Origin: a bacterium
GTDB lineage: Bacteria > Patescibacteriota > Patescibacteriia > 2-12-FULL-60-25
Reading direction: 5' to 3'
NCBI GenBank assembly: GCA_024654265.1
Contig: JANLIO010000055.1
Span: forward strand, 1-40,943
DNA length: 40,943 nt
The notes under the pieces were generated by a model that was not told where the DNA came from, searched no databases, and worked only from the letters and a program-made list of their open reading frames with translations. The translations under genes and the position numbers were made by a program. Positions 4,683 to 18,499 of the stretch are shown here, piece after piece. Every line of letters begins with the position of its first letter. Within the stretch, counting starts at the first letter, position 1.

Positions 4683-5150
4683 ATGCGCGGAAAACAAGCC
4701 CCACGTCGCCCAGTTGCGCCAGACCCAAAGTACAATTCCCAAGTGTTGGGTAAATTTATGAATTACGTCATGGAACGAGGGAAGAAGTCCACGGCGCAAC
4801 GAATTGTGTATACCGCATTTGATGCTGTTGAAAAGAAAGCCGAGAAACCGGCAATGGAAGTATTTGAAAAAGCAATTGAAAACGTTTCGCCATCTATCGA
4901 GGTTCGTTCACGTCGTGTTGGTGGCGCAAACTACCAAATTCCAATGCAAGTTCGTGCGGATCGCCGTCAACAGCTCGCATTTCGTTGGATTTTAACAGCA
5001 GCCCGTTCACGAAAAGGTCGGCCAATGGCAGATAAGCTCGCTGATGAGATTTTGGCAGCAGCAGATAACCAGGGAGACGCGATCAAAAAACGTCAGGACG
5101 TTCAGCGTATGGCAGAAGCGAACCGCGCTTTTGCTCACTTTGCTCGGTAA
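4683..5150 (+). CDS. rpsG: 30S ribosomal protein S7
   Basis: Full-length S7 signature (MRGKQAPRRPVAPDPKYNS...GGANYQIPMQV). Confidence 0.98.
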   Translation: MRGKQAPRRPVAPDPKYNSQVLGKFMNYVMERGKKSTAQRIVYTAFDAVEKKAEKPAMEVFEKAIENVSPSIEVRSRRVGGANYQIPMQVRADRRQQLAFRWILTAARSRKGRPMADKLADEILAAADNQGDAIKKRQDVQRMAEANRAFAHFAR

Positions 5151-7545: not shown

Positions 7546-8049
7546 ATGAAGGATCTTGCCATGACCATTCCCGCAGTGTTAACTAGGGTGACTATGTCAT
7601 GGACACGTATATTAAACACAGCACGACGGAACGGAATTCCGTTGATTGTTACAGATTCAAATGGTGACGAGCCGATGGTTGTTTTGCCTCTTGAACAGTT
7701 TGAGGCAATGTCATCAATGGGGAGCGAAATGAATCAGCAGGAAAAGAAGGTTCAACCAGCAAAGAGTGGACTCCATCGTGTGGATTTACCGATTCAAAAT
7801 GATCGAAATTTGGATGAGCAGAGCGCTGTAACATCTGAGCGTATTCTTGAATCAAATTCTTCTCATCTCGATGGCGGACACGTTGCGTTTGAAGAGATTC
7901 CTTTCGGTAAAATTGATAATTCTTTCGGAGATCAAGATCAGATCCGTTCTGTTGATTTCTCGATAAATACTCAAGAAAATGCTGATTTAGATGCACCTTT
8001 GGAAGAACAGTTTTTTTTAGAACCGCTCGAAGATGAAGAAAATGGCTAA
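7546..8049 (+). CDS. hypothetical protein; N-terminal segment weakly resembles Phd/YefM antitoxin DNA-binding fold
   Basis: 167 aa ORF between fusA and tuf; ARRNGIPLIVTDSNGDEPMVVLPLEQFEAM resembles the Phd/YefM pattern; C-terminal two-thirds low complexity and acidic. Confidence 0.6.
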   Translation: MKDLAMTIPAVLTRVTMSWTRILNTARRNGIPLIVTDSNGDEPMVVLPLEQFEAMSSMGSEMNQQEKKVQPAKSGLHRVDLPIQNDRNLDEQSAVTSERILESNSSHLDGGHVAFEEIPFGKIDNSFGDQDQIRSVDFSINTQENADLDAPLEEQFFLEPLEDEENG

Positions 8050-9357: not shown

Positions 9358-9714
9358 ATGACCGACGACATAAAAAAAGCAGGAAACACGGATGGAACAA
9401 GTGATGTTGAATCATCGCGAGTTCGCATTAAAATCCGAGCGTACGATCATAAGATTATCGATCAATCAACTCGAACGATCATCGATACGGCTGAACGTAC
9501 GGGTGTCAAAGTCGTTGGTCCGGTTCCACTCCCAACGGAGAAGAGGAAGTGGACTGTGAATCGCTCAACATTCGTTCATAAGGACGCACGCGAGCAATTC
9601 GAGATGCGGATCCACAAGCGACTGGTTGATATCTTGGATCCGAACGCAAAGACGATTGATGCGCTTACGTCGCTCAATCTCCCAGCTGGAGTGGATGTGG
9701 AAATAAAAATGTAA
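9358..9714 (+). CDS. rpsJ: 30S ribosomal protein S10 with short N-terminal extension
   Basis: [46 protein letters not shown]...[19 protein letters not shown]. Confidence 0.97.
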
Positions 9715-9752
9715 TTTGTACCTCGAACGAACCGATTTATAAGGAGTAAGTT

Positions 9753-9932
9753 GCCGCCCCGATGTGGAAACATCGAACATGATGTCGGGGCACATGAAGA
9801 ACGCGATTCTTCACCATGGCATAACCTCCCTCTAAACGCGGACGCTCGTTGTGAAGACAAGATCGCCTTTGATCGCGCAGAGGCCAGGCATCGTTTGATG
9901 ATTTTAGAATCGTCCTTCTATGCCTGGCCTTT
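9753..9932 (+). ncRNA. candidate structured RNA leader between rpsJ and rplC
   Basis: Hairpins by eye: 9756-9765/9782-9791; 9795-9801/9807-9813; 9881-9891/9920-9930 (perfect 11 bp) continuing into 9897-9903/9908-9914 with a TTAG loop. Unusually long gap for this cluster. Confidence 0.6.
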
Positions 9933-9963
9933 CGTGATTTCGGGGGTCAGATGAATCCAAGCT

Positions 9964-10573: not shown

Positions 10574-11206
10574 ATGCCAAAGGTAAGCGTCTATAATCAA
10601 GAAGGAAAAGAAACAGGAACTCTTGAGTTGAGCTCACGTTGCTTTGGAGTGGAAGTGAAATCAGAACTTGTTCATGAGGTTATTGTTGCTCATCAGGCAA
10701 ATGCGAGAACGGCGCACGCAAACACGAAGACAAAAGGTGAAGTGCGCGGTGGTGGTAAAAAACCTTGGAAGCAAAAGGGAACAGGTCGTGCTCGTCACGG
10801 ATCTTCTCGATCACCTTTGTGGATTGGTGGAGGTATCACACATGGACCACGCGCTGAAAAGAATTTTTCGTTAAAAGTAAACCGTAAGGTGAAGCGAAAA
10901 GCTTTGTGTATGATCCTTTCTGATAAGGTTGTGAATCGTCGTATGATTGTTCTTGAAAAACCGAATTTTAAGGATACAAAGACAAAGGAAGCTGCGACAT
11001 TGTTTGCAAATCTTCCATTGTATCGCGAAACTCTCTTCGTGATTCCAGAGTCGAATCCAATGCTTCTTCGAATGGTGAAGAATATTCCGACTGTAAAGCT
11101 CGTAACTGTAAACACGTTGAATGTGTTTGACGCAATGCGTTATCCGACAATCCTTTTTGAAAAGGATGCTGTCGCTCGATTTGAAAAGACATATGGGACT
11201 GTTTGA
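10574..11206 (+). CDS. rplD: 50S ribosomal protein L4
   Basis: ARTAHANTKTKGEVRGGGKKPWKQKGTGRARHGSSRSPLWIGGG. Confidence 0.97.
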   Translation: MPKVSVYNQEGKETGTLELSSRCFGVEVKSELVHEVIVAHQANARTAHANTKTKGEVRGGGKKPWKQKGTGRARHGSSRSPLWIGGGITHGPRAEKNFSLKVNRKVKRKALCMILSDKVVNRRMIVLEKPNFKDTKTKEAATLFANLPLYRETLFVIPESNPMLLRMVKNIPTVKLVTVNTLNVFDAMRYPTILFEKDAVARFEKTYGTV

Positions 11207-16388: not shown

Positions 16389-16781
16389 ATGCATACTGAC
16401 CCCATAGCAGACTTTATAACACGAATCCGAAATGCGCAGATGGCGCAGAAAGCGATTGTGAAATCTCCGTCCTCACGGATGAAATTTACGATTGCCAAAA
16501 TTTTGGAGCGTGAAGGATTTGTCGGAGCCGTTTCCGAGGAATCAGATGGACCAAAGAAGACAATAACCGTGCATTTAAAATATGAGGATAAAAAGCCGGT
16601 AATTTCTTCAGTAAAACGTATCTCGAAACCCGGACGACGTGTGTATCGCGGAGCAGGGTATCTTCCTCGTGTCCTTTCGGGCATGGGAATTGCCATTGTT
16701 TCGACATCACAGGGTGTGATGACAAATAAGGACGCACGAAGACGGAAGCTCGGAGGAGAGATTCTCTGTGAAATATACTAA
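16389..16781 (+). CDS. rpsH: 30S ribosomal protein S8
   Basis: MHTDPIADFITRIRNAQ...GIAIVSTSQGVMTNKDARRRKLGGEILCEIY. Confidence 0.98.
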   Translation: MHTDPIADFITRIRNAQMAQKAIVKSPSSRMKFTIAKILEREGFVGAVSEESDGPKKTITVHLKYEDKKPVISSVKRISKPGRRVYRGAGYLPRVLSGMGIAIVSTSQGVMTNKDARRRKLGGEILCEIY

Positions 16782-17719: not shown

Positions 17720-18499
17720 ATGGAAGAGAATAAAGACACGAAGGTTGAAGAGATCGCGGGCGTAGGAGCCGAGGTCGCAAAAACAGCGGATGCTCCAGCA
17801 TCGACTGCATCTTCTTCAGATACTTCCAAAAAACCTGCATCTGTACCAGCATCAAGCCATCGTGGTCCTGCGCGTGGCGGTCGTGGTCCGGGTGGCCCAG
17901 GAGGTCGAGGCCCAGGAGGTTCCGGCGGTCGTGGTGGTTCCGGAGGAGGCCGTGGTCCCGGTGGCGGTCGTGGCGGTGGACCTCGCCCACGTCGTGACGA
18001 ATTTGAAGTAAAATCAGAATACGACGAAAAGAACCTCGAAGTTGCTCGTGTTACACGTGTGACAAAGGGTGGAAAACGAATGCGTTTCCGTGCTTTGACT
18101 GTTATCGGAAATCGAAAGGGCCGAGTTGGCTTTGGTACGGGAAAAGGCGTTGACTTTCCGGGTTCAACCTCAAAAGCAGCGGCACAGGCTCGAAAGTCTC
18201 TTATTACTGTACCGATGCGAAATGGAACGATTCCTCACTCGATTCGTGCAAAATATGCAGCAGCAGAGATTCTTTTGAATCCAGCTCCTCGTGGGACAGG
18301 AATTAAGGCCGGTGGCCCAGTTCGAGTCGTTTTGGAACTTGCTGGCGTCGGAAACGTTACGGCAAAGATTTTAGGTTCGAAAAATAAGATTAATAACGTG
18401 AGAGCTGTCTTTAAGGCGCTTTCCTTATTGAAATTACCTTTAGAAGAACGAAACGTAAATACGGAAGACAAGGCACCAAAGATAGAGAAAGAAAGCTAG
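17720..18499 (+). CDS. rpsE: 30S ribosomal protein S5 with Gly/Arg-rich (RGG-like) N-terminal extension
   Basis: S5 core (VARVTRVTKGGKRMRFRALTVIGNRKGRVGFGTGKG) preceded by about 95 aa including RGPARGGRGPGGPGGRGPGGSGGRGGSGGGRGPGGGRGGGPRPRR. Confidence 0.96.
   Translation: MEENKDTKVEEIAGVGAEVAKTADAPASTASSSDTSKKPASVPASSHRGPARGGRGPGGPGGRGPGGSGGRGGSGGGRGPGGGRGGGPRPRRDEFEVKSEYDEKNLEVARVTRVTKGGKRMRFRALTVIGNRKGRVGFGTGKGVDFPGSTSKAAAQARKSLITVPMRNGTIPHSIRAKYAAAEILLNPAPRGTGIKAGGPVRVVLELAGVGNVTAKILGSKNKINNVRAVFKALSLLKLPLEERNVNTEDKAPKIEKES

Follow-up and report, generated by a model that had tools for sequence, protein, structure and literature searches.

What occupies the one long gap in an otherwise compact ribosomal-protein gene cluster, and what might it do there? 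In the window, by which we mean the whole 40,943-nt stretch of bacterial DNA that was analysed, rpsJ (S10, identified by sequence, 9358-9714) and the rplC ORF (L3, 9964-10563) are separated by 249 nt (9715-9963); these genes and all parts of the element described below lie on the + strand. The ORF and gap tables confirm the report of the initial annotation that this gap interrupts tightly packed ribosomal genes. It is the sole sizeable gap within the 22 genes from tuf to secY, the others measuring at most 38 nt each. The gene order is fusA, tuf, rpsJ, the gap, rplC, rplD, rplW, rplB, rpsS, rplV, rpsC, rplP, rpmC, rpsQ, rplN, rplX, rplE, rpsN, rpsH, rplF, rplR, rpsE, rplO and secY. The source genome, that of an uncultured bacterium, is 0.87 Mb in size and 96.5% complete, and the best named matches of the L3 in the window are from Patescibacteria, at 51-53% identity. 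Together with the small genome and the intervening sequences in its 23S rRNA, these matches make membership of Patescibacteria probable. We also observed a 167-aa ORF between fusA and tuf (7546-8049) whose N-terminus resembles a Phd/YefM-type antitoxin domain, which is unexpected within a translation-factor operon, and an S5 (rpsE, 17720-18499) with a long N-terminal extension very rich in Arg-Gly-Gly repeats.

The gap contains the entire element. Its region folds at -89.3 kcal/mol, compared with -68.2 ± 4.5 kcal/mol for shuffled sequences (z = -4.7), and none of 200 dinucleotide shuffles folded as well; chance is discounted as an explanation, since the structure is preserved in relatives and covaries there. 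The arms of helix P1, GGAG (9743-9746) and CUCC (9826-9829), enclose an internal loop with the strands UAAGUU (9747-9752) and AUAAC (9821-9825), followed by the two arms of P2 (9753-9755 and 9818-9820). Inside P2 are hairpin a (9756-9791), with a 10-bp stem 9756-9765/9782-9791, and hairpin P3 (9795-9813), with the stem 9795-9801/9807-9813 and the apical loop CGCGA (9802-9806). Both stems had been proposed in the initial annotation and are present; the region that it marked is real, and only its start must be moved, from 9753 to P1 at 9743. Further downstream we found hairpin P4 (GCCUUU/AGAGGC, loop GAUCGCGC; 9865-9884) and hairpin T (9881-9932), which has the stem AGGCCAGGCAU/AUGCCUGGCCU, an upper stem and a weak U-tract at 9930-9932. 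The perfect pairing annotated earlier at 9881-9891/9920-9930 lies in T and is continued by imperfect pairing up to 9903/9908. The P1 internal loop, P4 and the contact between the P3 and P4 loops were absent from that annotation. An ORF at 9751-9954 was rejected as a gene, because the inserts of relatives are indel-rich and the RNA covaries.

The same element was found in 35 of 35 same-family genomes examined, in rpsJ-rplC gaps of 152-629 nt. R1, a covariance model built on the 5' half of the element, matched 40 of 41 family genomes at one site each; the single genome without a match has a completeness of 82%, and rplC was not matched in it either. All 35 positioned sites, of 40 in total, lie between rpsJ and rplC; R1 had no match at rRNA loci. 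In alignment A1, which holds 34 family copies, the blocks GGAG, AAG, A-AA and CUCC are invariant, P1 being GGAG/CUCC. The internal loop of the family reads (U/A)AAGUU on its 5' strand, where AAG and the second U of the UU are invariant and the first is conserved in at least 90%, and AUAAC on its 3' strand, where positions 1, 3 and 4 are invariant and positions 2 and 5 are conserved in at least 90%. The enclosed helices change on both sides, at three of three pairs in P2 (96% paired) and at seven pairs in hairpin a (75% paired), and P3 also covaries. Pair counts over the family alignment gave 107 cells with both-side changes, compared with 45 ± 6 after shuffling, and the covariation score was 0.283 against 0.122 shuffled and at most 0.121 in slid controls. 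As P1 is invariant within the family it shows no covariation there, and its covariation comes from class members. Two hairpins usually stand inside P2, and eight copies, including L008, L014, L023 and L031, have a single one. These results support the view of the initial annotation that a structured, non-coding and probably autoregulatory element lies between rpsJ and rplC, since it is kept in same-family genomes with covariation.

Beyond the family, the class set comprised 78 further rpsJ-rplC gaps from 68 other families. Many of these gaps contain the arrangement P1-(A)AAG(A/C/U)-P2-(A)AAC-P1', with helices that vary freely (UGUAGAG/CUCUAUA, GCGGAU/AUCCGC and CAAGGAG/CUCCUUG are examples), and in L219, L228, L229 and L232 the order is circularly permuted to P-AAC-P-AAGU-P. 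With a word list drawn up post hoc, an AAG.../...AAC loop, direct or permuted, occurs in 25 of the 78 gaps on the sense strand and in one on the antisense strand. Because selecting loops purely by words failed in AT-rich gaps, we adopted a joint descriptor, controlled by shuffles and by the antisense strand; it detected 24 gaps against 0.6 in shuffles, again with words listed after the data had been seen. R1, although built from the family only, recovered class member L238 directly behind rpsJ (E = 3e-4). The element always stands ahead of ribosomal-protein genes. Family f21 (two genomes), with a gap of 5-10 nt, has lost it, so there it is dispensable. Other leaders were also seen in this location: a second type, AGGUUC-(UGGGGAUGA...AUCCCCA)-GAUAACGAUUUGC, in L185, L191, L200, L204, L215, L216, L224 and L231, in which the same internal loop probably recurs in variant form, and a third type, GAAUGAUCC...GGAUAUCG, in L118, L199, L209 and L218.

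The 3' half of the element bears on how it might act. The hairpin at 9881-9930 had been annotated as unlike a plain terminator, and here the comparison with relatives speaks against the annotation: it is the homologue of hairpins (GGCCAGAAG...CUUCUGGC-UUUU) that lead into tracts of at least UUUU. In the window copy alone the tract is poor, UUUCG (UUUCGUGAUUU), and T may thus terminate poorly in this organism. By a lenient rule, which also fires in many shuffles, a terminator is present in 32 of 35 family gaps (shuffled mean 16, maximum 19) and in 63 of 76 longer class gaps (shuffled mean about 20, maximum 25). A GC-rich hairpin followed by a U-tract, the signature by which intrinsic terminators are predicted, is therefore found across family and class, the window copy having only UUUCGUGAUUU.

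The base of T overlaps the 3' arm of P4 (9879-9884) at 9881-9884, so that the two hairpins compete. In minimum-energy folds of P4 together with T, the P4 3' arm goes to T in nearly all family members; with the overlap, this marks P4 as a natural candidate for an antiterminator. Relatives have alternative P4 stems (UUCCGU/ACGGAA, CUUCG/CGAAG and others), and P3 retains a GCGA-like apical loop across the family. In the window, the P4-loop nucleotides AUCGCG (9872-9877) are complementary to CGCGAU (9802-9807) at the P3 loop. Between 4 and 9 contiguous Watson-Crick pairs are possible in 25 of 25 two-hairpin copies, and the loops change jointly, as in AGCGAA/UUCGCU, GUGCGA/UCGCAC, GGAUCGAUC/GAUCGAUCC and AACGAA/UUCGUU. 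The summed run of loop pairs was 141, compared with a mean of 115 and a maximum of 132 for shuffled partners, and none of 2000 partner shuffles reached it in this test, which ignores kinship. From these comparisons we establish a predicted architecture of a 5' sensor domain, a P3-P4 kissing loop and an intrinsic-type T that shares nucleotides with P4. The kiss with P3 may be what couples P4 to the sensor; we infer this coupling and the direction in which it works. Another route to antitermination, in which the CCCAAGGAG flank would pair with CUUCUGG, is impossible in the window or in L011 and was discarded.

Promoter-like sites scoring 10/12 or better were detected in none of the 35 family gaps, and in the family the element starts as little as 15 nt after rpsJ, which together argue that it is read from upstream. 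In the class set, promoter-like sites occur in nine gaps, against 1.6 expected and a maximum of 7 in 100 shuffles. Near-consensus sigma-70 promoters of the TTGACA-17-TA..AT type stand between rpsJ and the leader in L186, L190, L194, L222 and L234, and several begin 3-12 nt past the rpsJ stop codon; the one in L186, TTGACA-17-TAGAAT, is directly behind rpsJ. Where a promoter has this position, in some other families, the element would be a true 5' leader.

Our results suggest that the element is probably an attenuator, placed before the S10-spc cluster, through which a ribosomal protein, whichever that may be, controls transcription by feedback. RNA polymerase arriving from tuf and rpsJ would transcribe the element. 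As long as the sensor is free, the P3-P4 kiss would stabilise P4, which would occupy the base of T, and with T blocked transcription would proceed into rplC and the approximately 20 ribosomal genes downstream. When a ribosomal protein encoded in the cluster is in excess, it would bind the internal loop and break the kiss; T would then form and halt transcription before rplC, while EF-G, EF-Tu and S10 would still be made. The direction of this switch and the identity of its ligand are the conjectural parts of the model.

Could T simply be a constitutive terminator that ends a str-type transcript (fusA-tuf-rpsJ), with S10-spc served by its own promoter and the 5' structure incidental? The terminators are real, and the promoter-like sequences of nine class gaps exceed expectation. 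However, the majority of those promoters precede the terminator, which transcripts of rplC must therefore still pass, and comparable promoters are absent from the family gaps. In 34 gaps of the class, no more than 30 nt separate the start of the T-tract from rplC; a promoter could not fit behind it, so the terminator must be read through. As this explanation also leaves the kissing loop and the invariant internal loop unaccounted for, we consider it very improbable. A role in translation or mRNA processing, in which T sequesters the rplC start and termination is secondary, is suggested by members in which T lies 0-20 nt from that start (L008, L014 and L029 among them) and by the scarcity of clear Shine-Dalgarno sequences in these rplC genes. 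This reading is improbable as well, because a U-tract follows the hairpin in almost all members and T is tens of nucleotides from the start in most of the family (median 62 nt). A junction with a kissing loop is also a general riboswitch-like architecture, and the element might in principle respond to a small molecule or another global signal, such as nucleotide or Mg level, that sets growth-rate control. What is conserved, however, is a short helix interrupted by an internal loop, as is typical of protein sites; the three-way junction is dispensable in the single-hairpin copies named above, and the loop is also found circularly permuted. A riboswitch is for these reasons extremely improbable.

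If the element is an attenuator operated by a ribosomal protein, S8 is our leading candidate for that protein, a tentative one, and L4, encoded by rplD (10574-11206, + strand, identified by sequence), comes second and is rather unlikely. Homologues of the S8 gene, rpsH (16389-16781, + strand), were detected in 152 of the 154 class genomes. In the window rpsH belongs to the putatively controlled cluster, 6.4 kb downstream, and in single-contig class genomes, compared by eye, it follows rplC on the same strand at a distance of about 6-7 kb. The family loop, AAGU/AUAAC, is reminiscent of the site in 16S helix 21 that S8 binds, which in these genomes has the form AAGU/AUAC or AAAC, and a looser resemblance, with AAG and (A/U)AAC strands in a helix in either order, was found. 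The strict helix 21 consensus (N-A/C-G-U opposite A-U/A-A-C-U/G, including the 596-644 pair), whether direct or permuted, was absent from both strands of all 113 gaps, and leader loop type shows no visible correlation with helix 21 sequence across genomes. An AAC-opposite-AAGU loop also sits in the 23S domain-I consensus, the organism's own copy having diverged, and such a similar loop makes the resemblance to the S8 site unspecific. On these three grounds the likeness makes S8 a lead and not a result. Mimicry by the leader of the organism's own 23S rRNA was considered too and dropped, as leader words gave just weak partial matches. The same architecture with L4 or L3, the proteins named in the initial annotation, as ligand is a doubtful alternative. 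Theirs are the first two genes behind the switch, and such a prior ligand is the usual heuristic; L4 controls the E. coli S10 operon through Rho-independent termination in its leader (PMC10931766), and an L4 leader has been predicted ahead of rplC in Archaeoglobi (PMC7247131). Against it, we found no resemblance to an L4 site, the family sensor loop being closer to the S8 site, and even Pseudomonas does not conserve the E. coli L4 leader, which is located before rpsJ (PMC10931766).

The element does not appear to be a known RNA. Rfam 15 gave nothing at gathering score in the gap, and at relaxed thresholds nothing convincing in the gap or in 19 relatives, the best sub-threshold matches being chance. 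In the literature and catalogues searched there is no description of this rpsJ-rplC switch, and ribosomal-protein regulation in Patescibacteria was not found in that literature. The E. coli S10 leader is likewise a structured RNA with a Rho-independent terminator in an S10 operon under ribosomal-protein feedback, which here is predicted; no sequence or structure common to it and the element was found (no Rfam match), and it stands in the 5' UTR before rpsJ, whereas the element follows rpsJ, so that S10 and EF-Tu would escape control. The E. coli spc operator for S8, at the rplE start, and 16S helix 21 resemble the leaders in being a small-loop helix with AAG(U) opposite (A/U)A(A)C. Compared with 16S, the strands of the spc mRNA site come in permuted order, the triple A+80-(A+81-U+11) standing against A595-(A596-U644) (PMC4176348), and both orders also occur among the class leaders. 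Unlike the S8 site, the leaders have extra loop nucleotides and no 596-644 pair, and the E. coli operator represses translation, whereas the leader here comes with a terminator. The closest counterpart in location is the L4 r-leader predicted before rplC, rplD, rplW and rplB in Archaeoglobi, rated borderline by its authors (Eckert and Weinberg 2020; PMC7247131); it is archaeal, and we compared it by location, not by consensus. That survey lists no bacterial r-leader between rpsJ and rplC of S10-spc and does not mention Patescibacteria (PMC7247131). With a conserved structure supported by covariation and a consistent location ahead of ribosomal-protein genes, the element is like the other r-leaders predicted there (Eckert and Weinberg 2020). 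By this comparison it is a predicted r-leader-type attenuator that is new for this lineage, not a new kind of regulator.

If the attenuator is correct, a bacterial radiation that ranks among the largest and least accessible would gain a regulatory RNA that can be tested, placed so as to uncouple EF-G, EF-Tu and S10 from the remaining ribosomal proteins. The natural circular permutations of its recognition loop would also allow a clean test of how RNA shape is recognised by a protein. A possible but more speculative reading is that, throughout a large class resembling Patescibacteria, S8 operates the attenuator, with its kissing-loop antiterminator and both strand orders, and so controls all of the S10-spc cluster; this would then be the first r-leader described for the lineage, and S8 would act by a mechanism unlike that in E. 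coli.

The rRNA genes showed features of their own. In the 16S rRNA of genome G123 (L243), helix 21 has GCAU/AGAU-G at its S8 site in place of AAGU/AAAC-U, so that A-U apparently replaces the conserved G597-C643 pair. The 23S rRNA gene in L136, from the organism's own genome (C89; 1501-5495), contains several intervening sequences, including a group I intron at 4803-5094 (Rfam match) and another insert that apparently encodes a GIY-YIG-like protein.
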